From Bacteroidales bacterium (lineage in GTDB: Bacteria; Bacteroidota; Bacteroidia; Bacteroidales; Dysgonomonadaceae): a stretch of DNA of 51,519 nucleotides. Position 1 is the stretch's first letter. Each line of letters starts with the position of its first letter. Made by a program: the position numbers and the translations under genes. Shown here one piece after another: positions 20,421 to 42,082 of the stretch. The stretch is taken from contig DUPB01000211.1 of NCBI GenBank assembly GCA_012838585.1, forward strand, positions 1 through 51,519, given 5' to 3'. The notes under the pieces were generated by a model. The model made no database searches. It was not told the DNA's origin and saw only the letters and a program-made list of their open reading frames with translations.

Positions 20421-20454
20421 TACCTCTTCTTTGCTATGATTGGGGCTTCATCAA

Positions 20455-21123
20455 TTATTCCCATTCCCTTTCCTTTTCTGGCAACTTCAACGACCATACA
20501 TCGTTGACAAGCGGGGGGGTCATACCACCCGCGATCCATATCTTGTCTTGGAACACGAAGGCGGAATGCTCGTGTCGCTCTTTCCATTTCACGCCTTCGG
20601 TTTTCAATTTCGTCCAGTTCTTCCCGTCGGTCGAGTACCAGACGTCGTCCCAATTCTTACCTGCGTTTCCCGTTACCAGTTCCCAATCTTTGCCGTTCTT
20701 GGAAGACCAGACGCTGTTGCTTGCCGAACGGCCTTCCAAGCGGCCGTTGTACCAGCCCCCCATCATCCACATCCGGTTTTTAAAAACGGCGCTCATGGGT
20801 AAGTCGCTGTGCAGCCAAGGAGCGTTGTCCAGCACCTTTTCCCAACTCTTGCCATCGTTCGAACGCCACACGTCGCGGGGAGGTGCCTGGTATGAATCGT
20901 GCCACCCACCCAGTATCCACATGTACCCCTTGTACACGAGTTCCCCCTGGGAATCCCGTGCTTCCCACCCGGCACTACTGCTTTCCTGTACCCACTTGAT
21001 GGAGGGGTACTGCAGGAAAGGATTATCTTTCTCTATATGAATCTGCCCCTGTCCCAGGAGAAAGCAGGATATACCTGTAATGAGCAGTAAAAGTATACTC
21101 TTGAATAAACACCGATTTTTCAT
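20455..21123 (-). CDS. Kelch-propeller protein, internally deleted copy
   Basis: A 222-residue exported Kelch protein with the leader MKNRCLFKSILLLLITGISC. It is almost identical to the 359-residue copy at 22938-24017 but lacks 132 internal residues: ELVTGNAG of blade 2 is joined directly to KNWDDVWYST of blade 5. Blades 3, 4 and half of 5 are missing, so a closed six-bladed propeller cannot form. At the DNA level the gap is exactly 396 bp and the joint is GTTTCCCG (20665-20672), an 8-bp sequence present at both ends of the deleted segment in the intact copy. Probably non-functional despite its open frame. Confidence 0.85.
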   Translation of the reverse strand: MKNRCLFKSILLLLITGISCFLLGQGQIHIEKDNPFLQYPSIKWVQESSSAGWEARDSQGELVYKGYMWILGGWHDSYQAPPRDVWRSNDGKSWEKVLDNAPWLHSDLPMSAVFKNRMWMMGGWYNGRLEGRSASNSVWSSKNGKDWELVTGNAGKNWDDVWYSTDGKNWTKLKTEGVKWKERHEHSAFVFQDKIWIAGGMTPPLVNDVWSLKLPEKEREWE

Positions 21124-21300
21124 TTCTTCTTTTTGTTATGAAACGTGTAATCGGTATCCCGTGGGGACTGTACCGAACAAGCGTTAACCCGCTTGTTATT
21201 TCTTGATTTCCTAAGCATGTTTGCATGCTTCTTTGATTACACTGCCAAAGTACTGAGATTTATTAATGGGAGCAAGTAAAACCGGATGTTTTTAAATACA
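21124..21300 (-). promoter_or_regulatory. Kelch leader/promoter region, copy 1
   Basis: This upstream region is homologous to 24018-24180 before the intact Kelch gene. Shared elements include, on the minus strand, CAGTACTTTGGCAGTGTAAT, a promoter-like TACTTTG with a TTG about 20 bp upstream. A perfect 7-bp dyad ACAAGCG/CGCTTGT (21178-21197) lies in the leader here but is degenerate in copy 2. It probably carries the start site and a regulator or structural element. Confidence 0.45.
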
Positions 21301-21320
21301 TATTCATGATCGTGAACTTA

Positions 21321-22736: not shown

Positions 22737-22777
22737 TGTCTCATTTTGCTGTTTTAAAATGACTACACGCGTAATTT

Positions 22778-22977
22778 TTATTGCAACCATGCTTCATCGA
22801 AGATTGCCATGTCGAGGTCGCTAGTCATCGGTCGAACATCGCGGTAGTGGCTAATCCCCAGTAGAATCCGCCCATCATCGAGCTGGATAATCCCGTGATT
22901 GCTGAGTTGATTGGAACCGGTTTCATCGGCGATGACTTTAGGGTTGCCCCAGCTTCGGCCGCCGTCCTCTCTCTCTT
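22778..22977 (-). pseudogene. C-terminal remnant of an Asp-box (sialidase-like) gene fused out of frame to a Kelch gene
   Basis: On the minus strand a frame without its own start reads an Asp-box (EDGGRSWGNP), then LSNHGIIQLDDGRILLGISH and MTSDLDMAIFDEAWLQ before TAA at 22778. This is the last blade of a BNR/sialidase-like propeller. The upstream end merges with the 3' end of the Kelch gene, whose reading frame runs into the remnant out of phase and stops at 22938. A shorter paralogous end, MTSDLDLAIFNEMWLQ, follows the chimeric gene at 40496. A deletion removed most of a sialidase-like gene that once followed a Kelch gene. Confidence 0.75.
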
Positions 22978-24017
22978 GGCAACTTCAACGACCATACATC
23001 GTTGACAAGCGGGGGGGTCATACCACCGGCAATCCATATCTTGTCTTGGAACACGAAGGCGGAATGCTCGTGTCGCTCTTTCCATTTCACGCCATCGGTT
23101 TTCAATTCCGTCCAGTTCTTCCCGTCGGTCGAGTACCAGACGTCATCCCAGTTCTTACCCGGGTTTCCCGACCATCCACCCATGACCCACATGCAATTCC
23201 TGTAAGCCACCGAGGAGAACCATATCCTCTCGTGCCAGCCAGCCCGGGGGGTTTCCTGTCGCCAGTGTATCCCGTCGGCGCTGCTCCACACGTCGTTATA
23301 CCCCCAGTACTCGGGGTCATAGTTCCCCCCACCCATGATATACACGCGATCGTTCAGTACCACTGCCTGGTGGTATGCCCGGGGGGGCCAACCTGCATCT
23401 GCCGTTGCCAGCTTCCAGTTTTTCCCGTCGTCGGAATACCACACGTCGTTCAGCAAGGACTCTTTGTCCCCGTAATAATAGGCGGTGGTCCCTCCCAATA
23501 TCCACATCTTGTTTTTAAAAATCACGATTGCCGCCGCGCAGCGGGGAGCCCAACCCGCGTTTCCCGTTACCAGCTCCCAATCTTTGCCGTTCTTGGAAGA
23601 CCAGACGCTGTTGCTTGCCGAGCGGCCTTCCAAGCGGCCGTTGTACCAGCCCCCCATCATCCACATCCGGTTTTTAAAAACAGTGCTCATGGGTAAGTCG
23701 CTGTGTAGCCAGGGAGCGTCATCCAGCACCTTTTCCCAACTCTTGCCATCGTTCGAACGCCATACATCGCGGGGAGGAGCCTGGTATGAATCGTGCCATC
23801 CACCCAGTATCCACATGTACCCCTTGTACACGACTTCCCCTTGGGAATCCCGTGCTTCCCACCCGGCATTACTGCTTTCTTGCACCCACCTGATGGAGGG
23901 TTGTCGCGAGGAGGAGCTGTCGTTCTCTTTATGGATCTGCTCCTGTCCCCGGGCAAAGCAGGATACACCTGTAAAGAGCAGTAAAAGTATACTTTTGATT
24001 AAACATTTATTTTTCAT
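22938..24017 (-). CDS. Exported six-bladed Kelch beta-propeller protein
   Basis: A 359-residue protein with the leader MKNKCLIKSILLLLFTGVSC. Six Kelch units of about 50 residues follow, each with a hydrophobic strand, MWILGG-type Gly pair and DVWYSDDGKNW-type end (units near 50, 100, 155, 210, 260, 310). Exported Kelch propellers act as carbohydrate-binding or enzymatic modules; sialic acid mutarotase is one known case, but nothing here proves that role. The final residues (RERGRRPKLGQP) are out-of-frame translation of the sialidase remnant, replacing the usual LPKEKEEW-type end seen in the other copies. It is the best-preserved Kelch copy in the window. Confidence 0.87.
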   Translation of the reverse strand: MKNKCLIKSILLLLFTGVSCFARGQEQIHKENDSSSSRQPSIRWVQESSNAGWEARDSQGEVVYKGYMWILGGWHDSYQAPPRDVWRSNDGKSWEKVLDDAPWLHSDLPMSTVFKNRMWMMGGWYNGRLEGRSASNSVWSSKNGKDWELVTGNAGWAPRCAAAIVIFKNKMWILGGTTAYYYGDKESLLNDVWYSDDGKNWKLATADAGWPPRAYHQAVVLNDRVYIMGGGNYDPEYWGYNDVWSSADGIHWRQETPRAGWHERIWFSSVAYRNCMWVMGGWSGNPGKNWDDVWYSTDGKNWTELKTDGVKWKERHEHSAFVFQDKIWIAGGMTPPLVNDVWSLKLPRERGRRPKLGQP

Positions 24018-24180
24018 TTTTCCCCCTTTGTTACGAAATGTGCAATCGGTAACGCGTAGAGACTGTACCGAACAGGCATTTACCCGCTTGTTTTATTTTG
24101 TTTCCGTAAGCATATTTGCATGCATCTTTGATTACACTGCCAAAGTACTGAAATTTAATAATAGGAGTAAGTAAAAGTGG
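24018..24180 (-). promoter_or_regulatory. Kelch leader/promoter region, copy 2
   Basis: Homologous to 21124-21300 upstream of the truncated Kelch copy, including CAGTACTTTGGCAGTGTAAT on the minus strand and the GCATGCAAA stretch downstream of it. The retained sequence suggests a shared promoter that duplicated with the gene. Confidence 0.45.
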
Positions 24181-26618: not shown

Positions 26619-28082
26619 TGTTTTGGCCCGGTAGGACAGGTACCATTCCTTGTACTTTTCCACTTCTACCGGGCGGGGGAAAACCCGTTTACAAAAGGAG
26701 GTTTGCTTTTCCATTGCTTCATCGAAGCTCCCGTAAAGCGACAACCCCACGGTACACGACAATGCCGCGCCTTTACAGGCAAGCTCTCCCGAGGCGGGAA
26801 CCCAAAACGGCCTGTTCAGCAGGTTGGCCTTGATTTGCAGCCACAAGCTGCTTTTGGCCCCCCCGCCGGAAGGGACGATCGTTCCCGCCTGACGCTCCTT
26901 GTCCAGGGTTGTTACCAGTTCCAGCAGGCTCGCCGCGGTAGATTCGAGGATGGCACGAACGAAGTGACCCTCTCGATGCCCCTTTTGAACGGGGTCGAAC
27001 CCCTGCAGTGCTTTGAACCTGTTTGCCCGCGGTCGGGCAAACAACCCGTCACAGCCGATGGGCACGGTTCTCGCTTCTTGCAACAACTCCTCGAACGTTT
27101 TCCCCCGGGCATGGTTCTCCCGGTACCATTCGAGGGCAACGGCCCCGTTGTCATCAAAGGCCATCTCGAAGAAATAATTTTCTTCCAATCCCGGTGCCGT
27201 GTTGACCCCGGTTCGAGGGGCGTAACCTTGCCGGTAGCGGACACATGCCAAAACCGTCCCGGTAGATTCGCTCAGGCCGTTCATCTTTGGAATGCCCGCG
27301 CCAATGGCTACCATGTGGTGGTCCAACCCGCCGGAAAACAAGAGGGTACCCGCCGAAAGCCCGATTAGCTTCGCCCCTTTGGCCGTCAGGTTGCCCACCC
27401 TGCTCCCGGTTCTCAACGGCGTGGATAGCTGTTCCCTTTGAACACGGTAACACTCGGTGGCGTCCGGCCACCATCGATTCGCGGGAACATCCAACAGGCC
27501 GGTCATGGAAGCCGTGCTCACGTCGCTCACGCGCTCACCGGTAAGGATGAATGCCAGGTAATCCGAAATGGTCATGATGCTTTTCACCTTCTCCCAGAGG
27601 GATGGTTTTTTTTCCTGGAACCATTCGATTTTAGCGATCATCGATTGTCTATCGGGGGGGACTCCCAAGCCTGTTTTCTCCAAAAAACCGGCTCGCGAGG
27701 AGAAAGCCCCGAGGGTATCCGAATCTTCCACGGCCCTTTCATCAGGCCACAAGATGAACGGGGTCAGGGGATGATCGGCCTCGTCCAACAAGATGAAACT
27801 ATTGGCCTGGGAAGAGTAGGAGAGGGCGCTTACTTCGCGGGGAGAGATACCGGCATGCCGGACGGCACCCGAGACACAGCATTGCAGGGTATCCCAAAAA
27901 ACGGCGACCGGCAATTCGCATCCAACGGCATCTCGCGTCGCGGGAGATGCCTTCTCCTCCCTGAAAACGGGAAACCTCTTTCCCACGGCGTGCCGTCCCA
28001 ATCCCAAGAGGGAACCGTTCTCATCGAATATTCCCGCTTTGAAATAACTGGTACCCAAATCTATCCCGAGGAAACAGTTCAT
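26580..28082 (-). CDS. FGGY-family carbohydrate kinase
   Basis: About 500 residues. The start is taken at ATG 28082, which overlaps the stop of the upstream gene as ATGA and follows GGGAGG, one of the few clear ribosome-binding sites in the window. FGGY features are the N-terminal phosphate loop (FLGIDLGTSYFKAGIFDENG), FILWPDERAVED, the second domain GGLDHHMVAIGAG and SGGGAKSSLWLQIKANLL. Members phosphorylate xylulose, ribulose, rhamnulose, fuculose, glycerol or erythritol. The closest type cannot be decided by eye; xylulokinase-like is plausible. Translational coupling to the cytoplasmic ceramidase-like protein suggests that the kinase acts on a product of that enzyme. Confidence 0.9.
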   Translation of the reverse strand: MNCFLGIDLGTSYFKAGIFDENGSLLGLGRHAVGKRFPVFREEKASPATRDAVGCELPVAVFWDTLQCCVSGAVRHAGISPREVSALSYSSQANSFILLDEADHPLTPFILWPDERAVEDSDTLGAFSSRAGFLEKTGLGVPPDRQSMIAKIEWFQEKKPSLWEKVKSIMTISDYLAFILTGERVSDVSTASMTGLLDVPANRWWPDATECYRVQREQLSTPLRTGSRVGNLTAKGAKLIGLSAGTLLFSGGLDHHMVAIGAGIPKMNGLSESTGTVLACVRYRQGYAPRTGVNTAPGLEENYFFEMAFDDNGAVALEWYRENHARGKTFEELLQEARTVPIGCDGLFARPRANRFKALQGFDPVQKGHREGHFVRAILESTAASLLELVTTLDKERQAGTIVPSGGGAKSSLWLQIKANLLNRPFWVPASGELACKGAALSCTVGLSLYGSFDEAMEKQTSFCKRVFPRPVEVEKYKEWYLSYRAKTNSTLREGHADYN

Positions 28083-29401
28083 ACCTCCCACTCGTTAAGT
28101 AGTTCAACGGTTTCCCGCGACATGATTTCTCCCGCGGTGTAATGAAACAAGCTGTTTCCCGCTTCGTAAGATCGCCTTTCATCCGCCTCCCGGGTGACAA
28201 TGTACCCTTGCAATTCACCGTTGGCGCAAGTGATGAGGAAACTGTTTTCAACCCGTTGCTTCAGGGCGAGGCCATACTCCACGAAGATCTCTCCCGGCCA
28301 TGCCACGAAGGTCCATTCGCCTATTTTAATCGCCTGTATCTCGGCGGGCAGGCACTTCTCGTAGTAATCGCCAATAGAACCCGAGGCCGCCAAGGTAGAG
28401 AAGAACAGTAGTTCTTCGGCCCCGAACCAGTCCACTTCCGCGGTACGGGTTTCCCGGGGGTCTCTCCCCTCTTTTCGCGATATTTCAAACCGTTCCCTTG
28501 CCCGGTCGCGGTTTCGCGTTGCCCACGCCTCGCCCGGGAACGAGCGCTTGGGAAGGTCTATCGACGTTTGGGCCGATAGGAGCGTCGCCTCGGGAACGTA
28601 AGTCGCGGCACCGGGGATTTTTGAAAGGAGCGAACCGGCCACGATTTCCCCGAGGCGCTTTGCCTCGGCAAAGGTGTTGCCTCTTGTCACGTGCCTCGGG
28701 CTTTGGTTTCCTGCCGCCCCGGTACAATACACGAACGTGCACTGGCTTCCCAAGTGCCCCTGTAGCGATTCCCTGACGTAATGGGGGAAATCGCCGCTGA
28801 AGAGCGTGGAGTCTTCATGCAAAACCGTGGGATGCATACTGCAGACCAACAGGCCGGCAATGAATTCACCGTCCCGGTTTCGAACCAGCATCATGGGTAC
28901 CTCCATGTCGCTTGCCCCTCCCGGGTCATGGCGATTGGTGCCCACGCCCGTGGCATCCCCTTTCACCAAGCCGATTTCGACCGGCTCGGCTTTCAGGTAA
29001 GCCTGGTAAGCGGCCTCCACGCTCCTTTCTTCCATGTAATCCAGGTAACCCTCGTCTACCAACGGCACGACGGGATCGTTCGCGCTATCGGCGCAGTTTA
29101 CCGTCACGGGGCCCGAATGGGTATGGGTGGCCGCGATCATGATGCCCTTCCCCGGGATCCCGGTTTTTCGAGAAATGGCTTCCCGGATACGGGAAACCGA
29201 ATCCTTAGCGATATAGATAATATCGTTGGAGATGAAGAGCACCTGTTCTTTACCATCGGTTACATATAACGCGGAGCTTAATAACCGGTCATTCACGCCG
29301 GTACTGGTTCTCTCCACGAATGGATACCCGAATAGAAAACAGGGCGTTTCAGGGGTTATATTCACGCTTGACGCGCCCGCTTTTAACCTGTTTGATCCCA
29401 T
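28079..29401 (-). CDS. Cytoplasmic neutral ceramidase-like amidohydrolase
   Basis: A 440-residue ceramidase-type domain without any signal peptide. It keeps ATHTHSGP (about H93 and H95), SMHPTVLH (H190), WPGEIFVEYG and, unlike the three exported paralogues in the window, a Ser at the nucleophile position (AAGNQSPRH, Ser234). Classical neutral ceramidases hydrolyse the amide of ceramide outside the cell; a cytoplasmic member in an operon with NagA, NagB and a sugar kinase more likely deacylates a soluble N-acyl compound. Its start codon lies in one copy of a 33-bp direct repeat. Family is fairly sure; substrate is unknown. Confidence 0.83.
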   Translation of the reverse strand: MGSNRLKAGASSVNITPETPCFLFGYPFVERTSTGVNDRLLSSALYVTDGKEQVLFISNDIIYIAKDSVSRIREAISRKTGIPGKGIMIAATHTHSGPVTVNCADSANDPVVPLVDEGYLDYMEERSVEAAYQAYLKAEPVEIGLVKGDATGVGTNRHDPGGASDMEVPMMLVRNRDGEFIAGLLVCSMHPTVLHEDSTLFSGDFPHYVRESLQGHLGSQCTFVYCTGAAGNQSPRHVTRGNTFAEAKRLGEIVAGSLLSKIPGAATYVPEATLLSAQTSIDLPKRSFPGEAWATRNRDRARERFEISRKEGRDPRETRTAEVDWFGAEELLFFSTLAASGSIGDYYEKCLPAEIQAIKIGEWTFVAWPGEIFVEYGLALKQRVENSFLITCANGELQGYIVTREADERRSYEAGNSLFHYTAGEIMSRETVELLNEWEV

Positions 29402-29494
29402 ATGACACGCTTGTTATTTTAATATCCCGACATCAAGGGGGTGGGGTGGATACGGCTTCATTCCCACATGACACGCCTGTTATTTCAATATCCC
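29396..29494. repeat. 33-bp direct repeats spanning the NagB-like stop and ceramidase-like start
   Basis: Copies at 29396-29428 and 29462-29494 differ at 3 of 33 positions and are offset by 66 bp. The downstream copy on the minus strand contains the ATG of the ceramidase-like gene; in the other copy that codon is GTG, in frame but followed by a stop. The pattern suggests a tandem duplication that built the present 83-bp spacer. Confidence 0.8.
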
Positions 29495-30417
29495 TTGTCC
29501 CAGTCGGGTTCGATGTTTTGAGCGATGGTTTCCGACACGTAAACATCCGTCGGGAGTGTTTGTAAAACCGATTCGGGGACTAACGGCGTTACCGGTCCAT
29601 GGAGGACAAGACGGCAAATGAACCTTTGCCACGACGTGCTTGTCCCGTGAACGGTAATGGCGTGTACGTCAATCCGATGTTTGGCCTTGATCACCTCCGC
29701 GGGACCTATCGTCGCGGCCTTGGGAGGTATTGCCGCCAGGTTGCCGCTCTTCCCGAAGAAGCCGTGTAACGAGTTTTGCGCGATGGTGAAAGGGCTCAAC
29801 GTGCAGATCCTGGCCCCCATCTCCCTCCACTCTTCATATGTTCCCTTGAATTCGGGGGCATCGGGTTCTATGAATGCCAGGTGTCCGGTCCACCCGGGCC
29901 CACAATAACAGATATCGGCACCTCCCAGGTCGTCAATCATCTTCCCGTAATCCTTCAGGTTTTTATTGGTAAATCCCACGATCTGCTTTTTGGGAGGTCT
30001 TAGTTTTTCATCGATTTCATAATAGAAATATTTCATCATGGAATGGGTGAAACCGAACTCCCACTCTTCGGGAGCTATGTTCCCGTGCTCGTCGGCGTAC
30101 TCGTCCATCGCGAAGGCGTGAATATTCCTGCAATCGAGATTACAAGCATTGATGAGCCTGGCCACGTGGCGGTATCCCGGGTCCGGGTTGGGGAGGATCA
30201 TCACCAGCTTTTCTCCCGTGTCTGAAGAGTGCTTTATCCGGCAAAACATGTCGGTAATCCATATGGGATCCACGTCCACGTCCGGTACCACTTTAATCTT
30301 GAAATCGGGATTGGGATGTTTTTCAATATCTTCTCTACTGATATTCAAAACCCGGTTAATCTCTTGCTTGTCCTTAAAAGGCACCCATGGCGATGGGCTA
30401 AAATCAAATGTTTTCAT
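29485..30417 (-). CDS. NagB-like glucosamine-6-phosphate deaminase homologue with altered active-site motif
   Basis: A 310-residue NagB/RpiA/SugarP-isomerase fold protein. It has FAMDEYAD (Asp105-Glu106, matching the NagB general-base Asp72 region), LGGADICYCGPG and WTGHLAFIEP. In E. coli NagB the last motif is GNDGHIAFNEP; His179 and Glu184 are kept but Asp is Thr177 and Asn is Ile183. It is longer than E. coli NagB (266). It lies 19 bp downstream of the NagA gene, so an amino-sugar phosphate route is likely, but the substitutions suggest a different substrate or weaker deamination. Cytoplasmic. Confidence 0.83.
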   Translation of the reverse strand: MKTFDFSPSPWVPFKDKQEINRVLNISREDIEKHPNPDFKIKVVPDVDVDPIWITDMFCRIKHSSDTGEKLVMILPNPDPGYRHVARLINACNLDCRNIHAFAMDEYADEHGNIAPEEWEFGFTHSMMKYFYYEIDEKLRPPKKQIVGFTNKNLKDYGKMIDDLGGADICYCGPGWTGHLAFIEPDAPEFKGTYEEWREMGARICTLSPFTIAQNSLHGFFGKSGNLAAIPPKAATIGPAEVIKAKHRIDVHAITVHGTSTSWQRFICRLVLHGPVTPLVPESVLQTLPTDVYVSETIAQNIEPDWDKGY

Positions 30418-30436
30418 TTTCTCCTATTTTTTTAAA

Positions 30437-31615
30437 TTATAACTCGAAAAAGCATTCCCCGCCTATCCAGGTCTGCACCACGTTCAGGTCTTTGTCCAAG
30501 ATCACGAGATCAGCGTCATAGCCGGGGAGCAGAAGACCCTTGTGGTCGTCGATGCCCAAAACTTTCGCGGGGTTGGTGCTGACCAGCTTAATCGCTTCGC
30601 GCACGTCCAAGTTCAGCCACTTGACAGCGTTCCTCAATGCCTGGTCCATGGTAAGCCCGCTACCTGCTAGCCCGCCATCTCGAACACTCCTGGCAGGAGC
30701 CCCTTTACACGCGAACTCTATCACCCCGCTATCGGCGAAAGTGAACTGACCGGCACCCAGCCCGGTACCAATATTGGAGTCGGTGATAAAACAGACACGA
30801 CCCGGTCCTTTTGATTTACAGGCAAGGGCCAATTGAACGGCAACGGGATCCACGTGCACACCGTCGAAAATAAAATCAACGCTTACCCTTTCATCGGCCA
30901 GGATAGCTTCCACCGCCCCGCAAGGCCTCACGCCCGAATCGGTTTCTCCCGGGCAAGGGAACACGTTGTAGAAGTGGGTAGCATGCTTGGCTCCCAACCT
31001 TATGGCACGTTGTGTTTGCTCCACGGTCGCCGCGGTGTGCGTCATGAAGACCGGCGTGCCGTTCCAGGCCATAAGGGGTATCAGGGTCTCGATACCCTCT
31101 ACATCCGGGGAGATGCTGAAAATCGCTTTATAGGGCTTAGCAGCTTCTATTAAAGAGAGTACCCTCGATGCATCGATATCCGACGTGGCATCTTTCGTCA
31201 GAGCCCCCGCGAGTTTAAGAAATGGGCCTTCCAAGTGAAAACCCAGGATTTTCGCCCCCTCTGCCCGTGTTGTAGCGAGTGCATGAAGAAACGCGGCATC
31301 TTCACCGGCGCGACGCGGGGTCAAGGTAGGCAAAAAACCGGTAACACCATACCGGGGAAGGTTGTGGCAGATATCGATTAAATCCCCCGGCCCGTTGTCG
31401 ATCAATGAATAGAGCAAACCATGTATATGCATATCGATAAACCCGGGAACGATGAGGCAATCGCCGACATCGATGATCCCTCCCGTTGGCTTGGAATGAC
31501 CGATCTCCTTGATCTTACCGTTTTTCACGGTAAGGTAACCGGCGATCACTTGATCACCCGTAACGATCTTGCCCGACAAGGCGTATTGGGCCTTGTTCCT
31601 TTTTTCTCCTTCCAT
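30437..31615 (-). CDS. nagA: N-acetylglucosamine-6-phosphate deacetylase (NagA)
   Basis: A 392-residue amidohydrolase with all NagA landmarks: GFIDMHIHGLL near residue 60 (metal His pair region), FHLEGPFL (metal Glu), THTAATVEQTQRAIRLGAKH, ATHFYNVF, DGVHVDP and the catalytic Asp in CFITDSNIGTGLGAGQFTF. It removes acetyl from GlcNAc-6-phosphate in the cytoplasm to give glucosamine-6-phosphate for a NagB-type enzyme, which is the next gene. Upstream, between this gene and the MFS transporter, an orphan C-terminus of a short-chain dehydrogenase remains. Function is well supported, although the exact N-acyl sugar could differ in this operon. Confidence 0.93.
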   Translation of the reverse strand: MEGEKRNKAQYALSGKIVTGDQVIAGYLTVKNGKIKEIGHSKPTGGIIDVGDCLIVPGFIDMHIHGLLYSLIDNGPGDLIDICHNLPRYGVTGFLPTLTPRRAGEDAAFLHALATTRAEGAKILGFHLEGPFLKLAGALTKDATSDIDASRVLSLIEAAKPYKAIFSISPDVEGIETLIPLMAWNGTPVFMTHTAATVEQTQRAIRLGAKHATHFYNVFPCPGETDSGVRPCGAVEAILADERVSVDFIFDGVHVDPVAVQLALACKSKGPGRVCFITDSNIGTGLGAGQFTFADSGVIEFACKGAPARSVRDGGLAGSGLTMDQALRNAVKWLNLDVREAIKLVSTNPAKVLGIDDHKGLLLPGYDADLVILDKDLNVVQTWIGGECFFEL

Positions 31616-31630
31616 ATCGAACCTGTTTTC

Positions 31631-31713
31631 TCAGGCGTGCATACCACCATCCATTAAAATATTCTCACCATTGATATACGCGCCGGCATCGGGAGCCGGC
31701 AACACCATCCCTG
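31631..31713 (-). pseudogene. C-terminal remnant of a short-chain dehydrogenase
   Basis: Between the MFS and NagA genes the minus strand reads APDAGAYINGENILMDGGMH then Ala and a stop. This is the unmistakable end of an SDR family oxidoreductase (the conserved G-x-x-x-x-x-DGG tail). It begins directly at the stop codon of the transporter, so a deletion joined the transporter 3' end to the last about 28 codons of an SDR gene. Not functional. Confidence 0.75.
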
Positions 31714-32997
31714 TTAACGCGGTTCTTTTCGTTTCGTGGCGCTCCTTAGAACCAAAAACAAAATTCCCAAGCAAACAATCAATGCAATTGCAGAGATTTG
31801 ATAAACGGATGAAAGTTCAACTTGGGCATCTCTCATCGCGCCGGCCACGTACACACCTAACCCTCCCGTGATCGTCGATAGCATGTTCAGTATCCCGTAC
31901 CCGGTTGCCCTATACCTGTGATCGATGGTTAAGCATAGCATGGGCATCATGTTGGTGTCGGAAAACTTGCTTGTCAACGCGTAAACGGCAAACGCGGCCA
32001 CGGTTATGGCAAGCACGGTCGTTGTGCTCCCCAGGAGAATGGCCGGGATGGCAAATATCAAGCCGATGATAGGAACGATAATCCTGGCACGCGGGTTTTT
32101 CTTGCTCCACCTGTCAGAGAGGTATCCTCCCGCCAGTAGGCCAACGATGGAGACAGGCCATAGATAAGCCGTGGCATATACCCCGGCCATGCTTTGGGAC
32201 AAGTTAAACGTTTCCTTGTAATAGGTCGGCAGCCAGGCCGCTATAATCCAGTTAACCAGCCCCAGGAGGCTCCAAAAAAAGAGGAGGTAGATGTAAGCAG
32301 GTTTACCGAACAGGTTTTTTATGGCGTCGGTGAAAGATATTTTCTTTTCACCCGTTTTCACCCTATCGTCGGGAACCGATGATATTACCGTCTCCTCTTT
32401 CGGGGCATCCTTTAGGAACAAGCAAAGTATCACACCGTAGACAACCCCGATCACTCCAAGACTTGTAAAAGCCAAGTTCCAGGTGTGCTTTTCGGCTATC
32501 CACCCGCCAATGAATCCCAGGCTTGACCCCAGCATGACACCGGTGAGGTTTATCCCGGTGGCCAATGATTGCGTGGGCCCTTTGTGATAATCGGTGATTA
32601 AAGCCAGTGCCGCCGGCATGTAAAAAGCCTCGCTGATGCCCATCAAGGCACGGGTAACCAACAGTTGATTAAACGTGGTCGCGTGACCTGTCAGCCACGT
32701 GACCAGCGACCAGACGATCAAGCTGAATATGATGATATGACTGCGTTTAAACTTGTCCGCCATGTAACCGGCGAGGGGGCTCATCAACCCGTACACCCAT
32801 AAAAATGCGGACGTGAGCAGCCCGAATTGCGCGTCGCTCATCGGAATGGAATCGATGATGGAAAACCTCATCGTGGTCAGCATGTTCCGATCAATGTAGT
32901 TTAAAGCGCCCACGAGGAAAAGGAACATCACCACCAACCAGGCACCGCGTGGCAGGCTGTTTCCCGGGGAAGTCGCGACCTCGTTGTTAGATTTCAT
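31714..32997 (-). CDS. Major facilitator superfamily sugar/sugar-acid transporter
   Basis: A 427-residue inner-membrane protein with about 12 hydrophobic segments in two halves separated by a hydrophilic loop (about 200-235). NYIDRNMLTT in segment 1 and AGYMADKFKRSHIIIF between segments 2 and 3 (the G-x-x-x-D-x-x-x-R-type loop) place it near the anion:cation symporter group, which includes hexuronate and sialic acid porters. It overlaps the aldolase gene by 11 bp, so the two are translated together; a keto-acid sugar that the aldolase splits is a sensible substrate. Exact specificity is not determinable. Confidence 0.93.
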   Translation of the reverse strand: MKSNNEVATSPGNSLPRGAWLVVMFLFLVGALNYIDRNMLTTMRFSIIDSIPMSDAQFGLLTSAFLWVYGLMSPLAGYMADKFKRSHIIIFSLIVWSLVTWLTGHATTFNQLLVTRALMGISEAFYMPAALALITDYHKGPTQSLATGINLTGVMLGSSLGFIGGWIAEKHTWNLAFTSLGVIGVVYGVILCLFLKDAPKEETVISSVPDDRVKTGEKKISFTDAIKNLFGKPAYIYLLFFWSLLGLVNWIIAAWLPTYYKETFNLSQSMAGVYATAYLWPVSIVGLLAGGYLSDRWSKKNPRARIIVPIIGLIFAIPAILLGSTTTVLAITVAAFAVYALTSKFSDTNMMPMLCLTIDHRYRATGYGILNMLSTITGGLGVYVAGAMRDAQVELSSVYQISAIALIVCLGILFLVLRSATKRKEPR

Positions 32998-33862
32998 GGA
33001 TCTCTTTCATCAAATGGGTTATCTCCTCTTTCAACTCGTCGGGTATGGGCAACGCGTAGTCGGGGTGGTAATTGCCGGGGCAATTCAACAATTCCATCGC
33101 GTGGGAATAGGCCGAGAGCACGTTCCCCTTGAGGAACAAGTTCCTTAATTTCAAGATATTGGAAAGCGAGCGAGCGATTGACACGTCATCCCTGCCCGTT
33201 TCATACATTTTTTTCGAGTTCCAAGGCGTGCAGGTGAACATCCCGTCAAGGTTCCTGTCAACCCCGGACTTGATAGCCACGTCAAAGAGGTCTAAATTGC
33301 TATAGAAAATTGAAAAATCATCCCTTAACCGTTCACCCCGGCACAACTCGAGGATTAACTTCAGGTTCCCCGTTTTTATACCCCGTATATTCGTCTCCTT
33401 GACGAGTTCTTTAAGGACACGTATCGTGATTGGGGTTTGGGTCACGGAAGGTAAATCGTAGATGTAAACCGGGTAGCGGGAATTTTTTGAAAGTGTTTTG
33501 AAAAAATTAACAATATCCCTGGTATCCAACGGGTCGTAAAAAGGAACCGTGGTGACGACACCGTCCAATTTAATCGACTCAAGGGCATCCATTCTATCCA
33601 AAACCCGGTCGATGGAGCAATCCATGACCCCGACCAAAACCGGTATCCTGTTGTTTACAACATCACGACACTGTTTTGCTACCAGGGGATACTCCTTGTT
33701 TCTTATTGTTTCCATTTTCCCCATCGATCCCATGCACAAAACCCCTTGCGCTCCCGCCTCGATCATGAGCTCCACTTGACGATTGAAACTATCCTTCACG
33801 AGAGTACCTCCCACGCCGGTAGGAGTACCCAATGCCGGGTAAAAACCACTATTCATCTTCAT
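32987..33862 (-). CDS. DapA/NanA-family Schiff-base aldolase
   Basis: A 291-residue (beta/alpha)8 aldolase. The Schiff-base Lys163 (RGIKTGN) and Tyr135 (YIYDLPS) of the dihydrodipicolinate synthase/N-acetylneuraminate lyase family are present. The usual G-[ST]-T-G-E loop reads GSMGKMET, which is atypical and argues against true DapA. It has no signal peptide. It overlaps the upstream small gene by 14 bp and the MFS gene by 11 bp. With NagA and NagB nearby, lyase action on sialic acid or another 2-keto-3-deoxy sugar acid giving pyruvate is plausible, but no epimerase or ManNAc kinase is present in the window. Confidence 0.88.
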   Translation of the reverse strand: MKMNSGFYPALGTPTGVGGTLVKDSFNRQVELMIEAGAQGVLCMGSMGKMETIRNKEYPLVAKQCRDVVNNRIPVLVGVMDCSIDRVLDRMDALESIKLDGVVTTVPFYDPLDTRDIVNFFKTLSKNSRYPVYIYDLPSVTQTPITIRVLKELVKETNIRGIKTGNLKLILELCRGERLRDDFSIFYSNLDLFDVAIKSGVDRNLDGMFTCTPWNSKKMYETGRDDVSIARSLSNILKLRNLFLKGNVLSAYSHAMELLNCPGNYHPDYALPIPDELKEEITHLMKEIHEI

Positions 33863-35403: not shown

Positions 35404-36678
35404 TTATTTCACCAGTCTATTCTTTTTTTCCCATATTACCCTCGCGACCCAAACCGTTCCATCCGCTCCTCGCGGATTACTTTTTCCTCCTACTATATAC
35501 TCGGCATCGGTTACCCAAGACTCGTTTCGGGTTATGGCCGAAGCCCCAAAGTTCCCCAGCATCACGCCTCTTTCCGGGATCAAGATTTGTTCAGTCGATT
35601 TCATTACCCTCAGTTTTACCGTATCAACCTGCGCGATGAACAACGGGGCACGATGACGGGGGATATGATCGTTATTGGCCCCTCTCCTTGTATAGGTGAG
35701 AAACAGCGCGTCACTATGAACCAACCAATGGGTTTGCGTGTTGTAGCTGCCAAGTCCTTTCCCGTTATCAAACACCCACGGTTTAACCGGTTCCCAGTGG
35801 AGACAGTCTTTACTGGTGGTCACGTAACCCCTTGCATCGTTTCTTAAAGTGAGGTAGTAAGTCCCCTTGAAAAATGCAAGTGAAGGCTCCCCGAGCCCGC
35901 GTCCTCCCTCCACGGTCAATTCTTCACCATGTTGGATGTACGATAACGTGTTACCATCAAAAGAACATTCGAATACCGTGACAAAAGAGTCACTGGTTTC
36001 CGGTTTGTTAATATAAAGCGGGAGCAGAATAGTCCCGTCTGGCTTCACGACCCATTGCACACACCCGGGGTTCAGGAAGAAAAAATCTTCGGACTCGGGT
36101 GCATTTGAAATTCTTTTCCAAGGCGTCCATGAGCTTGTTTTCGGATCAAATACCGTGTATACTGCATCGTGAGAACGCCTATCTTCTTTCTGCCATCCTT
36201 CAGGTGCATACCTCACCCTGATTCCCACGGCTAACACTTTACCCGTTTTCGCGTGCCACGAGGGTGTAACATCTGCAACGCTTATGATGGTCCCGTCCGG
36301 TTCATATTGCCATTTTAATTCGGGAATTTCAATCGGTCCTGTCCACGTTTCACCCAAGTCATCCGTTCGCATGTAGTATAAACCCGAGTAGAAATCCGAT
36401 TTGCCCTGCAACTCTTTTTGAATGGTCATGATAACCGCGGGCTTACCATCTTTTCCTATACCGGGTACGGCCGTAGCCCTCGGGTGAAACCAGCAATACT
36501 CTTCGTTAAGTTCCTGGTGCGCCACGTCTGTTTTCACAGAAAAGCCAGTTGCCGTCGTTTGCTCACTCGTTTGGTTTTCAGGATCAACGACTTTGTCAGT
36601 GGAACAAGACCCCGGTAAGCATATCAAACACAAGCTGTAAAACGCGATGAAACGTTTCATTTTTGTCTTCATTTTCAT
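35404..36678 (-). CDS. Exported BNR/sialidase-like propeller lipoprotein
   Basis: A 424-residue protein with a lipobox at about Cys25 (LICLPGSC). The leader (MKMKTKMKRFIAF) is shared with the ceramidase-sialidase fusion at 36791. The body has an Asp-box-like TDDLGETW, CFHPRA-type start (EYCWFHPRATAVPG), GLGEPSLAFFKGTYYLTLRN and GSYNTQTHWLVHSDALFLTY, typical of sialidase-superfamily propellers. Residues near the N-terminus (NQTSEQTTATGFSVKTDVAH) also appear as the tail of the ceramidase-like protein at 21321. Glycosidase activity is possible; the Arg triad and Tyr/Glu pair of true sialidases cannot be assigned confidently by eye. Confidence 0.8.
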   Translation of the reverse strand: MKMKTKMKRFIAFYSLCLICLPGSCSTDKVVDPENQTSEQTTATGFSVKTDVAHQELNEEYCWFHPRATAVPGIGKDGKPAVIMTIQKELQGKSDFYSGLYYMRTDDLGETWTGPIEIPELKWQYEPDGTIISVADVTPSWHAKTGKVLAVGIRVRYAPEGWQKEDRRSHDAVYTVFDPKTSSWTPWKRISNAPESEDFFFLNPGCVQWVVKPDGTILLPLYINKPETSDSFVTVFECSFDGNTLSYIQHGEELTVEGGRGLGEPSLAFFKGTYYLTLRNDARGYVTTSKDCLHWEPVKPWVFDNGKGLGSYNTQTHWLVHSDALFLTYTRRGANNDHIPRHRAPLFIAQVDTVKLRVMKSTEQILIPERGVMLGNFGASAITRNESWVTDAEYIVGGKSNPRGADGTVWVARVIWEKKNRLVK

Positions 36679-36770
36679 TTTGTCTTTTTTTATTGCTTTC
36701 GCATTATTATACTTTTTTCAGTTTTTTTGTTTTTAAATTTTAGTGAGTTGACTCGTTAGTTTCTACACCT

Positions 36771-36790: not shown

Positions 36791-39502
36791 CTAGTGCAGG
36801 TAAAGCGTGTACTTGTACGCGCTTGCAGTGAAAACATCCTGTCCCTTGACTTCCTCGACCCCGTTTTCCCCGTACCGGGTGAGGTATATCTCTATGTTTT
36901 TTGTTTCCCTGTCTTCCAAAACCGAGAAGTTAGAGAGTTGAACTTGTTCCGGTTCACCCGGGGCACGGGTGTCGATGACGGTCACCGTGTGCTTTTTCAG
37001 GGCCACTTTCTCCTCGTCTATTTCAACGATCTGCAGTGGGTAACGGGGAAAATTCCCGTTCGCGGGAGTTAGGGTGATATTCCCGATCCAGTATAGTTTT
37101 CCCGTTTTGGAACTGCGGATGGTTTTATGGAATGTTGCTGACGAGTAAAATGTCTCTCCCGTGTCGTACCGTAAATCCTTTATCGGCTCCCAGGTTAAAC
37201 CGCCATCTTTCGACACGGAGTACCATTTTCTACCGGGGGCTTCGTTAATATCCAGCCCGGCATTCGACCCGCGCATGATCATGAGCAAGTTTCCGTTTTC
37301 CAGTTCACTGATGTCCAGTTCATTCAACCCCCTGGATGATACGCTCCGCGGGAGGAAAACGGTGTTGGATTTCTCCCATCGGTAATTATTCTCCGTTTTA
37401 TTCCAGCGTCCCACGAAACAGATGACCCCGGCTACACATCCCTCCCTGTAGTTGTTGGGGAAAATGGAGGGGTACTTCTCATCCTCGGGATCGCGATAAG
37501 GTACGGGAATCGTCGCGCAGATTGCCACCGAACCGTTCTTTAAGGCGATCGAGTTCCCGATATACATTTCGTTCTTATGCAGGAATTCGGGATTCCCCCA
37601 GTTCCCCGGGTTAAAATCGGCCCCCTGCTCGTAGTTGAGTTGATAACTCTTGTCCCACGTCATGCCGTCATCATCGGACAGCTCGTAAAAACCGTGATCC
37701 CAAAAATTCCTGCTCGAGAGGGCTTCTCCCGGGTCATTCAACACGATGCGCTGGAACACGGACCTGATAAGTTTGCCTGAAACCGGGTCATACGGCGGGT
37801 TCGAGGTGCTTTGAAACATGATAATGTGTCTCGCCTCCGTGAATATGGAGTCACCGGATTGTTGCGTCCGCTTTACCAGAGGCTCCCAATCCGACCAGGT
37901 TTTCCCGTTGTCTTTTGAAACACGCCTTTTAGTGTCTTCAACCCAATCGCTAATCTGCTCGTAACCACGAGTCTCTTCCCGGGCCATTCCAAGTCCCAGG
38001 TATGCCATCGCGGTAGCGGGGGCTACCCCCGGTCTCGGGTATTTCAAGTACAACTCTCTCTTTACCTCGCAAATGGGTCGATAATCCCGTTTTTCAATTC
38101 TATCCTTTACCGCGTGGTAAGTGTCGTGGCCTACCTGCTTTGATAAAGTCATCACCTCGTCCAGGATTACTTTTTCCAATCCCGCTTTCCACGGGGTCGG
38201 TAACCCGTAAGCCCGTTGGGAAGAGATGATTTCATATCCCCCTTTTAACAATTCCTCATCGGATGGTATGTAAGCCATCACGTCGTTGGAATAACCCATC
38301 ACGAAAATATCTTCCCCCAGCAGCTCTTTCAATCGGGTGGCGTAACTGATTAATACTTCACCCCCTAGGCTCACGATGGCCTGGTCCCCCAAGCGCCACA
38401 CCTGCACGGGATAAGGATAAGCCGTTGGCAAACTTCCTCCCCCCTCTACTGTTGCAAGCGCGCTTTCCGCCCATCTCTTTTCATAGCCGGTCAGTTCTTT
38501 CGCGTATTCTCTCAACTCCTTCTCGGTGGGAACAGGAGCGAGCTCCAGCTCTATCTCGGAATAGGCCACCGCGAGCCGCGGCTGTAACTCCCGCATCGGT
38601 TCATCGATAACCCGTTCCACGGCGGCGGCCAACTCTTTCCCGTACTGTTTGGCTAGGGGTACGCTCCGGCGCGGTAAGGGGTTTTGGTCGGCGCCGGCGC
38701 CCTGGAAGAACAGTGCCGTTGCACCGGGGTACAGTTTCTCCAGTTCTACTTGCGCGAATCCCGGGTAATCGCCGCACCACTCGTAACCGCTCAGAACGGT
38801 GGGATGACAGGCGTAACCGAAAACAACGGCTTTCATGTTGCCTTTTTCATCCTCCACCTTCAATACCGGTACGGAATAGTCGTTGGGTCCTTGCAGCGGG
38901 GTGAGGTTGGTAAGTTCCGACTCCTTGTTGTTCCTCCGGTTCACCTGGAAACGGGCGGTACCGTTTCGGGAAAAGAGTTTTACCGGTTCCGCCCTTTGGG
39001 TGGCTTCTTTTCCCAGTTGCACGATCCTCTCCTCAAACCACCCGGTATAGTTGTCAGTCAGCACCGTTTGCCGGTCATCCATCAGGTAAACGTACGTGTA
39101 ATCGTTTTTCAGGAGAGGCCCCGAATGGGTGTGGGAACAGTTCAGGACGACCTGTTCCTTCTCCAAGCCCGTTTCGGCTTTCAACCGTTCTTTGATACGG
39201 CCGGAAATTTCCCGGGGAATGCTTTCCAGGTCCATGGTGATTAGTAGCACTTGGTTGCCTTGCGCGTCTTCCAGGTGCAGGGCCTTGGCCCACAGGTCGT
39301 GGATCTTGCCTTCCGCGGGTTTATCCCGGTCGGCATAACCGGCCATCCAGATAGCTTCCCCGGGGGTTATCACGGTTTTGGCTACCCCCGCTTTCCATCT
39401 TGGCGCTGCATCTTGACCGTGAATGAAACAAGAAACCGGTAAGCATATCAAACAATAGCAGCAAAATGCGATGAAACGTTTCATTTTTATCTTCATTTTC
39501 AT
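36791..39502 (-). CDS. Exported fusion of a neutral ceramidase-like domain and a BNR/sialidase-like propeller
   Basis: A 903-residue continuous frame. After a leader ending near Cys25, residues about 35-470 are a ceramidase-type domain: LNCSHTHSGP (H124, H126), YACHPTVL (H233), GGEVLIS (E382), GYSNDVMAYIPSDEE (Y404); the Ser nucleophile position is Asn274. Residues about 515-890 are a BNR propeller with three Asp-boxes, SKDNGKTW (529-536), SDDDGMTW (609-616) and SKDGGLTW (764-771), plus RGLNELD and MIMRGSNAG. The ceramidase part is nearly identical in DNA to the gene at 21321. A two-enzyme protein acting on an N-acylated, sialylated-type substrate is an attractive reading, not proven. Confidence 0.88.
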   Translation of the reverse strand: MKMKIKMKRFIAFCCYCLICLPVSCFIHGQDAAPRWKAGVAKTVITPGEAIWMAGYADRDKPAEGKIHDLWAKALHLEDAQGNQVLLITMDLESIPREISGRIKERLKAETGLEKEQVVLNCSHTHSGPLLKNDYTYVYLMDDRQTVLTDNYTGWFEERIVQLGKEATQRAEPVKLFSRNGTARFQVNRRNNKESELTNLTPLQGPNDYSVPVLKVEDEKGNMKAVVFGYACHPTVLSGYEWCGDYPGFAQVELEKLYPGATALFFQGAGADQNPLPRRSVPLAKQYGKELAAAVERVIDEPMRELQPRLAVAYSEIELELAPVPTEKELREYAKELTGYEKRWAESALATVEGGGSLPTAYPYPVQVWRLGDQAIVSLGGEVLISYATRLKELLGEDIFVMGYSNDVMAYIPSDEELLKGGYEIISSQRAYGLPTPWKAGLEKVILDEVMTLSKQVGHDTYHAVKDRIEKRDYRPICEVKRELYLKYPRPGVAPATAMAYLGLGMAREETRGYEQISDWVEDTKRRVSKDNGKTWSDWEPLVKRTQQSGDSIFTEARHIIMFQSTSNPPYDPVSGKLIRSVFQRIVLNDPGEALSSRNFWDHGFYELSDDDGMTWDKSYQLNYEQGADFNPGNWGNPEFLHKNEMYIGNSIALKNGSVAICATIPVPYRDPEDEKYPSIFPNNYREGCVAGVICFVGRWNKTENNYRWEKSNTVFLPRSVSSRGLNELDISELENGNLLMIMRGSNAGLDINEAPGRKWYSVSKDGGLTWEPIKDLRYDTGETFYSSATFHKTIRSSKTGKLYWIGNITLTPANGNFPRYPLQIVEIDEEKVALKKHTVTVIDTRAPGEPEQVQLSNFSVLEDRETKNIEIYLTRYGENGVEEVKGQDVFTASAYKYTLYLH

Positions 39503-39518
39503 TTTGTCCTGTTTTTTA

Positions 39519-40304
39519 TTACCTGGGAAAATATCTATCTCGTTTCAGAATATTCATAATCTCATTCATTATATGTTTTGCTATTAATTTATGCCCTTCG
39601 TCATTGGGATGCATGCCATCTAGCATTAAAGCTTCATAACTAATCCCGGCTTCTAATTGATATTGGTTAAATAATTGACAATTATTTACTAACCCTGTTT
39701 TATATTCGCGTGCCAAGCCACAAACGACATCCACATATTGTATCAATCTTTTGTTTTGTATGTCTCCGTAATGATTACCAAGGATATTAGGTGCCATTAG
39801 GATAACATTTATATTTTTTGCCAAAAGTTCTCTTATCATAAACTCCAGATTATCCCTGTATCTCGTCAATGGAATCCTTGATGGTCCATAGGAGTAATTA
39901 TTATCAATATAGGCATCGTTTGTTCCGAATCCAATAATTACTATGTCAGGATTGTAATCTAGTACGTCTGTTTTAAAACGATCCAAAGCATGACGTATTT
40001 TAAATACATCGTTGTCCTCCTGATGCCCCGTATGGCTTCCCGGTACACCTGAATTGATGATTTTTGCTTTAATTCCTTTTTCTGCTAGTAAATCATCAAT
40101 ACGCTGAGTAAAAACTTTATTGATAGTTTCTCTAGTAGCCGTGATAGAATTCCCAAAAGCGACAATAACAATAGAATCTTGTTCTTGTGCACGTGTGATT
40201 TTGTTTCTTTGCTGGCTATCAAAGTAACTTTTAATTTCTGATTTTAGGAAAACAGAAAAAGAGACTCCAAAAACAAAAAATACAATTATTAAAAAAAATC
40301 GCAT
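39519..40304 (-). CDS. SGNH/GDSL-family hydrolase, membrane-anchored or exported
   Basis: A 261-residue protein with an N-terminal hydrophobic segment. Family blocks are visible: block I VAFGNSITATRE (Ser in GNS), block II SGVPGSHTG, block III IIGFGTNDAYI, and block V DGMHPNDEGH with the catalytic Asp-His. These enzymes usually remove acetyl or other esters from glycans or lipids. Base composition is clearly more AT-rich than flanking genes, and the upstream spacer is AT-rich as well, which suggests a separate origin. It lies 16 bp upstream of the ceramidase-sialidase fusion gene. Deacetylation of the locus substrate would fit. Confidence 0.9.
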   Translation of the reverse strand: MRFFLIIVFFVFGVSFSVFLKSEIKSYFDSQQRNKITRAQEQDSIVIVAFGNSITATRETINKVFTQRIDDLLAEKGIKAKIINSGVPGSHTGHQEDNDVFKIRHALDRFKTDVLDYNPDIVIIGFGTNDAYIDNNYSYGPSRIPLTRYRDNLEFMIRELLAKNINVILMAPNILGNHYGDIQNKRLIQYVDVVCGLAREYKTGLVNNCQLFNQYQLEAGISYEALMLDGMHPNDEGHKLIAKHIMNEIMNILKRDRYFPR

Positions 40305-40441
40305 AATAAAAGGAATATCACGTTTTGAACATGCGTCTTTTCAATATCTAAATAAAATCTCCCGAATTGTCTGAATTTGTGTGGCGAATTTAGTGATTTT
40401 TACTCGTAATTCACTGATTTATAGTGATTATATGCATGCTT

Positions 40442-40495
40442 TTACTGTAACCACATTTCATTGAAGATTGCCAGATCGAGGTCGCTTGTCATCGA
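40442..40495 (-). pseudogene. 18-codon C-terminal remnant of a sialidase-like gene
   Basis: Directly after the stop of the chimeric gene at 40496 and in the same frame, the minus strand reads SMTSDLDLAIFNEMWLQ and a stop. This closely matches the end of the sialidase remnant at 22778 (MTSDLDMAIFDEAWLQ). Both Kelch-type 3' ends are therefore followed by the same lost neighbour. Not translated by itself. Confidence 0.7.
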
Positions 40496-42028
40496 TTAAT
40501 CCCATTCCTCTTTCTTTTTGGGCAACTTCAATGACGACATATCATTGACAAGCGGGGGCGTCATGCCACCGGCGCACCCCGCGCTACTGCTTTCCCGTAC
40601 CCACTCGATGGAGGGTTGTCGCGAGGCAGTGGTATCGTTTTCTCTTTTGTCAAACAGGAGCTCCCTTATGGCCCCCATGATGATCGCTTCCGCTTCTCCC
40701 GTGGTGGCGCTGGATCCGGTTTCATACCCCCCCTGCGCGTACGATGCTCCCGTGCCGATGTATTCTGTTCCGCTATCCCCGTAAGCGGCCATGGCAACGA
40801 ACAGGTCCGGGCGCATCGCTTTTGCCGCCAGTTGATATTCAACGAACAGTTCCCCGGGGGTGAAAAGTATTCGGGCATCCCCGACGGATAGACACCCTAT
40901 CTCGTTCTTTTTCCCCTCCTGTCGACGTTTCAACCAGCCCAACATCCCCATGTTATTGGGCAGGTAATAATTGCCGATCTCCTCGTCCTTCATCCTTTCC
41001 TCGATCTCCTCCTCCAGACCATTGGCCGGTGGGAGCGCGATGTGGCGGGTATCCCAGTTGACTTGATTCCCGGTAACGCCCGTTTTCCGGGTGTTTTCCC
41101 ACGCCCTTTTCATGCCGTCGGCCAACCTTTCCGCCAGTACCAGGCGGTTTTCATGGCTCCCGTCGTTGTACTTGCCGGCGGCAACGTTACCCCCGGCACC
41201 GTTGAAATGGATGTGCAGGGCATCGGGCACGGCCAGTTGTCGTATGAAACGGGCAATGCCGGGGAAGTCGGGGTTGGCGATTCCCGTCAGGTAATAACTT
41301 TGCGGGTGGGTAGCGTAGAAGCTCAGCACGGCCACCGGTTGCTCATCGTTCCAGAAACTGACCAGCGATACCTCCGGGTCGATCACCCCCTCGGGCAGGG
41401 CACGCAAAAGCGAATCCTTGCAGGAGGAAGAACGGGAAGCGCGCACCTTCCCATCGGGGCCTAAAATCCTGCGGTTCGAGGCTACCCGGTAAACCTCCGC
41501 TTTACCCAACCCGACGTGGGTGACGGGTTGTGCCTCGTTTGCCGCCGCCCGTATCGATCGTTGGATCTCCCGGATCACCCCCCGGGCGAATGTCCCGTCA
41601 AAGCATCCCGGGGGCATGCCATGGGCCTTCAGGATTTTCTCCGCCGTGAAGTCACATGTCGGGGCATCGTGCTGGTGCAGGGTATGGACGGCCACCCGTT
41701 CAGGCACGGTCCCGGCGGCCTCGGCCAGCGCCTGCTTGAAGACATCCTGGCTTTCATTGTAAATGCCGATCCAGTCAATGGCGCACAAGACGATCGGCTG
41801 TCCCGCTCCCGTCAGTACCATCCCCTTTGCGCGCAGCCCCAGGTCGCACGAGTTTTTCATGCGCTGGTAGGTAAGGTCGCTCCCCACGGGAGGTGTGGCA
41901 TCCACGTCGAAGACGGCTATCCCCAGCGTTTCGCTTCCCGCGTGAACCTGCTCTTGTCCCCGGGCAAAGCAGGATATGCCTGCAAGGAGCAGTAAAAGGA
42001 TACTCTTGATCAAATACCGATTTTTCAT
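40496..42028 (-). CDS. Chimeric exported protein: Kelch leader, ceramidase-like domain, Kelch stub
   Basis: A 510-residue frame built from three pieces. Residues 1-29 are the Kelch-family leader (MKNRYLIKSILLLLLAGISC then ARGQEQVH). Residues about 34-462 are a divergent ceramidase-type domain with TLHQHDAP (H118, H120 in place of SHTHSGP), YATHPQSYY and TPGELFVEYQ; the nucleophile region reads NGAGGNVAAG with no Ser. Residues 466-510 match the Kelch protein start (SRQPSIEWVRESSSAG) joined straight to its last blade (AGGMTPPLVNDMSSLKLPK), the whole propeller being absent. The gene probably arose by insertion into and deletion of a Kelch gene. Confidence 0.85.
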   Translation of the reverse strand: MKNRYLIKSILLLLLAGISCFARGQEQVHAGSETLGIAVFDVDATPPVGSDLTYQRMKNSCDLGLRAKGMVLTGAGQPIVLCAIDWIGIYNESQDVFKQALAEAAGTVPERVAVHTLHQHDAPTCDFTAEKILKAHGMPPGCFDGTFARGVIREIQRSIRAAANEAQPVTHVGLGKAEVYRVASNRRILGPDGKVRASRSSSCKDSLLRALPEGVIDPEVSLVSFWNDEQPVAVLSFYATHPQSYYLTGIANPDFPGIARFIRQLAVPDALHIHFNGAGGNVAAGKYNDGSHENRLVLAERLADGMKRAWENTRKTGVTGNQVNWDTRHIALPPANGLEEEIEERMKDEEIGNYYLPNNMGMLGWLKRRQEGKKNEIGCLSVGDARILFTPGELFVEYQLAAKAMRPDLFVAMAAYGDSGTEYIGTGASYAQGGYETGSSATTGEAEAIIMGAIRELLFDKRENDTTASRQPSIEWVRESSSAGCAGGMTPPLVNDMSSLKLPKKKEEWD

Positions 42029-42082
42029 CTTTCTCTACTTGTCACGAAACGCGGTCATCATTTTTTCGCCCGAAATCGGGGA

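Follow-up and report, generated by a model that had tools for sequence, protein, structure and literature searches.

How could a single bacterial gene come to carry a ceramidase-like domain between the two ends of a Kelch protein whose propeller has gone? The question is raised by a minus-strand reading frame at 40496-42028 of a 51,519-nt stretch of DNA (contig DUPB01000211.1, from a Bacteroidales genome of the Dysgonomonadaceae), the whole of which we call the window. A preliminary description gave these coordinates and an order of Kelch leader, ceramidase-like domain and Kelch tail, and both are borne out by DNA-level matches at the leader, the linker and the end. The frame begins with an ATG, encodes 510 amino acids and runs from a 29-residue leader through a 431-residue ceramidase-like domain to a Kelch linker (KREND..SSSAG) and the last ~18 residues of a propeller. 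The leader is a signal peptide (MKNRYLIKSILLLLLAGISCFARGQEQVH; 41942-42028, minus strand) common to both standalone Kelch genes of the window and to a fusion gene in a related genome, and the match to the window genes (blastn, 82% over 102-109 nt) takes in ~23 nt upstream of the start codon (41943-42051 against 21038-21145 and 41948-42049 against 23937-24038, each 82%, E 1e-22). The linker (KRENDTTASRQPSIEWVRESSSAG; 40577-40648, minus strand), which stands in front of the propeller in the Kelch genes and has a counterpart in the related fusion, matches them at 80% (40575-40643 against 23860-23928, E 4e-10) and 90% (40575-40615 against 20966-21006, E 2e-8). The final piece (40496-40576, minus strand) comprises a junction codon (C485), the last ~18 conserved propeller residues, the C-terminal residues and the stop, and matches at 83% (40489-40574 against 20448-20533, E 1e-17) and 84% (40506-40573 against 22965-23030, E 7e-13). 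These E-values at the level of DNA rule out a chance origin of the Kelch pieces. Two details of the preliminary description needed adjustment. Re-entry had been placed at TTASRQ, but the Kelch similarity already begins again a little earlier, at KREND (40643). The propeller is indeed missing, 276 residues of it relative to the copy at 22938-24017, but what follows the junction is AGGMTPPLVND..SLKLP, ~18 conserved residues and less than the whole last blade that had been claimed.

The central domain (residues 30-460; 40649-41941, minus strand) scores 22.6 bits (E 5e-05) against Pfam PF04734, under the gathering cut-off of 32.1, and 19.8 against the NCBIfam neutral ceramidase model NF041649, far below its cut-off of 1200; we accordingly name it ceramidase-like rather than ceramidase and leave its substrate open. 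Its fold is much clearer. An AlphaFold2 model built on an alignment of 10 rows is mostly confident over residues 33-462, with weak stretches at 182-217, 280-292 and 432-438, and superimposes on the neutral ceramidase 2zws with Z 26.3 and an rmsd of 3.4 over 370 aligned residues, and on 4wgk with Z 25.2. Neutral ceramidases were the only good matches among solved structures, the next unrelated entry standing at Z 4.1, below the VIA-align score of 5 under which matches were excluded from evidence. The zinc ligands of 2zws, which we take to be His97, His204, Glu411 and Tyr448, fall on H118, H241, E393 and Y423 of the chimera in a profile alignment, all four invariant across the 12 aligned rows. 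At the GNxS/GDVSPN motif, which we presume to hold the nucleophilic serine of ceramidases, the chimera reads GGNVAAG, with an apparent alanine for serine; the alignment with 2zws ends just before this motif. The classical serine appears to be absent, and since it is apparently missing, the substrate may be other than ceramide. The Kelch tail behaves quite differently in the model. Residues 461-510 are predicted to be unfolded, with block means of pLDDT between 26 and 41, and no Kelch family of Pfam matches the chimera, so a closed propeller is absent. The gene is confirmed as a real chimera, most likely a secreted ceramidase-like enzyme with a functionless Kelch remnant.

Could the tail instead be native to ceramidases of this kind? 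The preliminary description had allowed for homologues that naturally end in the same residues. We read 26 distinct ceramidase-like frames for their tails, of which 25 were readable (L024 stops at a contig end, at the domain's end), and none of the 25 carries the Kelch tail; a native tail is ruled out among these relatives, and the claim of a chimera stands. The relatives, 51-70% identical to the chimera, end near LL.. or run into an extension, which in one locus (L054) matches alpha/beta-hydrolase families and in three others (L057, L058, L009) is similar by length. A donor lineage was also sought, in a tree of 33 rows from which alignments under 350 columns and identical segments had been dropped, and the chimera's ceramidase formed an isolated lineage there, not nested among Kelch-adjacent ceramidases. 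The nearest relative in its own genome is 62% identical. This lack of a recent sister would suit domain capture, the reading put forward in the preliminary description, in which a Kelch gene took up a ceramidase-like domain right behind its signal peptide and afterwards shed its propeller. The window contains a third ceramidase-like gene (28079-29401), leaderless by eye, with GNQSPR where the chimera reads GGNVAAG.

The preliminary description had proposed a search for a relative with leader, ceramidase and complete propeller, and a same-genus genome (G080; JAMNYO010000038.1, MAG Bin_28) holds most of such a gene. One frame of 445 codons (L048:4331-5668) begins with the same leader and continues with 13-14 residues of the ceramidase start, ~76 residues of the ceramidase end, the corresponding linker and a complete propeller. 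Both domains are therefore in one frame, leader and propeller entire, but the ceramidase has an internal deletion of 341 codons relative to the window copy. The window gene contains GGATGCC just twice, at a spacing of 1023 nt, and these two sites correspond to the ends of the deletion; G080 reads GAATGCC there. Its structure model is the opposite of the chimera's, with pLDDT of 26-58 over the ceramidase remnant and 59-95 over the propeller, where 26 of the 32 ten-residue blocks reach at least 70. Together the two genes hold every part of a leader-ceramidase-Kelch protein, and both junctions are seen twice. Because G080 holds this complementary gene, a leader-ceramidase-Kelch fusion very probably once existed. 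The same gene bears on the possibility that the chimera arose by misassembly of unrelated reads. The window's genome is a draft of 278 contigs, which leaves room for such an error, but the 510-codon frame is intact, the leader, linker and tail pieces are identical to the other three copies at just 69-87% of sites and so are not misassembled near-copies, and a second, independently assembled genome contains the two ceramidase junctions as well. We reject an assembly artefact, which would be extremely improbable on these grounds. The uncut gene with leader, ceramidase and propeller was found in none of 52 Kelch loci from GTDB r220 (by a pattern-based scan) and in none of 101 genomes of the family, and in an order-wide sample the single match among 393 genomes at E 1e-60 was the window's own. 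Viral contigs yielded one distant Kelch relative.

The place of the fusion in G080 is informative. The gene that follows it is a ceramidase of a second subfamily, 94% identical to the window gene at 21321-22790, which in turn follows the standalone Kelch gene at 22938-24017, and dS between G080 and the window is 0.31 for the propeller and 0.31 for the next gene. With the same next gene and equal divergence, the G080 fusion is orthologous by position to Kelch gene 22938. In the simplest history, the ancestor at this place would have had the fusion and the window copy would have lost its ceramidase completely. Capture would here require a separate gain with the same junctions. Directly after the stop of the chimera, and in frame, lies a 17-codon BNR/sialidase-like stub (MTSDLDLAIFNEMWLQ and stop; 40440-40494, minus strand; blastn 84% against 22776-22830), and an out-of-frame C-terminal end of a BNR/sialidase-like protein, recognized by translation, overlaps the 3' end of the Kelch gene (22781-22969, minus strand). 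We apply the label 'BNR/sialidase-like' to that protein end from our own reading of its translation, and among the 101 family genomes the longer piece has no match at E 1e-6 besides itself. With the end of one protein following both genes, as a stub after the chimera and at greater length after Kelch gene 22938, the two look like copies of one segment.

Behind the leader, both standalone Kelch genes carry an over-long linker. The gene at 22938-24017 (minus strand) has the same leader and a complete propeller by Pfam Kelch families, and 28 residues separate its signal-peptide core from the first conserved propeller tryptophan; the linker is a candidate excision scar. The second gene (20455-21123, minus strand) has 25 residues there, and has also lost inner blades through an in-frame deletion of 396 nt bounded by GGAAACGCGGGT and GGAAACCCGGGT, a repeat identical at 11 of 12 nt. 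To place these lengths we surveyed 53 Kelch loci, 52 from GTDB genomes and one viral. The linker was measurable in 51 (L091 and L100 being the exceptions), and we set aside the fusion (L053), two loci with other domains in front (L060, L064) and four in which the signal-peptide core is not clear (L098, L099, L102, L105), leaving 44. In 42 of these the distance is 6-15 residues; the remaining two have 19 (L082) and 27 (L083). The extra residues of the window genes correspond to the linker of the fusion, and their length is readable as a scar of ceramidase loss, one that capture leaves unexplained in both genes. It should be considered that L082 and L083, the latter a Verrucomicrobium Kelch gene, are unfused, so a long linker can arise without fusion, and this speaks for capture to that extent.

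How the two domains could have come together is suggested by the gene neighborhoods of relatives. One of the 53 loci is a fusion, and in the other 52, counted on stop-to-stop frames with some loci cut by contig ends, a ceramidase-type gene adjoins the Kelch gene on the same strand and within 200 nt in 11 cases, nine upstream and two downstream. Three of the nine (L054, L057, L058) are near-identical Prolixibacteraceae. Such neighbors occur in Bacteroidota, Planctomycetota and Verrucomicrobiota, and in a Dysgonamonadaceae genome (G098, MAG STF2_177) the ceramidase and Kelch genes are separate and directly successive, each with its own leader. Given these adjacent genes, fusion of neighbors is the simplest origin, as it takes one event where an insertion trimmed at both ends takes more. 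In two loci (L066 1021-5017 and L083 899-4966) the Kelch gene is immediately preceded by a pair of consecutive ceramidase-like genes, an arrangement that suggests a conserved gene set. The same Kelch family is also fused in other bacteria to GDSL-type hydrolases, on either side of the propeller (L060 and L064; GDSL-like in L062 and L067). Literature searches on ceramidase-like hydrolases paired with secreted Kelch proteins, the broader of them judged by titles among those listed, turned up nothing.

Taking these observations together, we put the probability at roughly 70% that the chimera goes back to a fusion, after which individual copies lost either half. This reading is favored because of the reciprocal gene in G080, the 11 of 52 neighbor loci and the long linkers of the window genes. 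A ceramidase-like gene and an adjacent Kelch gene would have become one reading frame in an ancestor, yielding a secreted two-domain protein of signal peptide, ceramidase-like hydrolase and Kelch propeller. The fused segment would then have been duplicated and the copies would have lost different parts by in-frame deletion: 276 propeller residues in the window chimera, 341 ceramidase residues in the G080 copy, and the whole ceramidase, with a linker scar left behind, in the two standalone Kelch genes. The order and direction of these events, like the function of the product, are what we infer; the survivor in the window is most likely a ceramidase-like hydrolase that is secreted and depends on zinc, with a tail of 50 residues that has no function. 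By eye, no clear microhomology was seen at the propeller deletion or the presumed excisions, and the origin of the leader was not traceable among ceramidase and Kelch leaders. The preliminary description was right that the chimera and its Kelch remnant are real, as the DNA matches attest, but in view of G080, the neighbors and the linkers, capture at KEND is not the best reading and the story was probably told backwards.

One observation sits poorly with fusion and loss. Between the chimera and G080, the ceramidase part differs by 11 synonymous changes in 70.5 sites and the leader, linker and tail together by 17.5 in 41.2 (summed, and small numbers), so the ceramidase is less diverged than the Kelch-derived parts that flank it, which would be unexpected under one shared history. 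Such a difference could be expected from gene conversion or from a ceramidase inserted more recently, and the uneven divergence is possibly compatible with either. As evidence for a later gain it favors capture, which we nevertheless consider unlikely, since each end of the inserted piece would have to coincide with a limit of the domain while the reading frame was preserved. Conversion among tandem copies, in which neighboring paralogues exchanged copies of leader and ends and no single simple ancestor lies behind the chimera, the Kelch genes and the fused genes, gains from the same unevenness along the gene and from the presence of three leader-sharing genes inside 21.6 kb of the window. The recurrence of the same two ceramidase junctions in another genome indicates that local conversion did not create the fusion, and as a full account we regard conversion as distinctly less probable even than capture.

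Fusion with reciprocal loss also finds a possible parallel in the same window, one for which capture has no explanation. A two-domain gene at 36791-39502 (minus strand) is a living example of ceramidase fusion, joining a leader to a second-subfamily ceramidase-like domain and a BNR domain (Pfam PF04734 and BNR above cut-off, BNR_2 just below). A sialidase-like (BNR) gene at 35404-36678 (minus strand) shares this leader (36600-36694 against 39424-39520, 88%) and continues with DKVVDPENQTS, a candidate scar that pairs with the ceramidase-end DEVVNLVNQTS; the leader match abuts, within 3 nt, a match to the ceramidase end of the gene at 21321-22790 (blastn, 36503-36597 against 21310-21404, 80%, E 3e-17). 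That latter gene (minus strand), 63% identical to the two-domain gene, ends in TTKSGFSVKTDVAY, which is the start of the sialidase's mature part. Here too, the ceramidase survives in one copy, with a stub attached, and the partner survives in another, with a possible scar. By eye, the leader-proximal part is shorter in two sialidase relatives (L107, L108). A more general process can be imagined, with a ceramidase-like module behind a shared secretion leader repeatedly gained or removed in frame before partners that are unrelated, namely the Kelch propeller and the sialidase; short scars would remain, and leaders and mature parts would recombine as modules. We hold this to be doubtful. The region at 29485-33862 includes an amidohydrolase, an MFS transporter and a DHDPS-type aldolase/lyase by Pfam (29485-30417 has no Pfam match) and is possibly an amino-sugar/sialic-acid catabolic cluster.

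In our judgement the trail of domain gain and loss in bacteria is seldom so readable. One half of a former protein survives in one genome and the opposite half in another, the DNA of both junctions can still be aligned, and inside the same 51.5 kb the ceramidase and sialidase genes form a second pair with a similar pattern. The case is also a warning that loss can leave behind what looks like a captured domain with its stub, and that Kelch or sialidase genes of seemingly simple make-up can descend from fusions. It further points to ceramidase-like hydrolases being paired with secreted Kelch proteins across several phyla.

Comparison with known systems places the chimera as follows. It resembles the N-terminal domain of neutral/alkaline ceramidases (PF04734; 2zws, 4wgk) in fold over residues 31-465 (Z 25-26 at 15-16% identity) and at all four presumed zinc ligands, and differs in scoring below the family cut-offs, in the alanine where the motif serine is expected and in having no counterpart of the C-terminal Ig-like domain that we take 2zws to carry. 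The G098 gene pair matches the fusion in its two domains and in their succession, but as two genes, each with a leader. With the G080 fusion the chimera shares leader, ceramidase ends, linker and Kelch end, whereas in G080 the propeller is entire and the central part of the ceramidase is gone. Fusion of genes followed by fission or domain loss is a known general process (e.g., PMC4224340). The likeness is that genes fuse and parts later separate; the present case differs in that the half retained is not the same in different copies and species, and in that none of the four leader-sharing genes has lost the signal peptide. The event is of a known kind, and the example is unusually legible.
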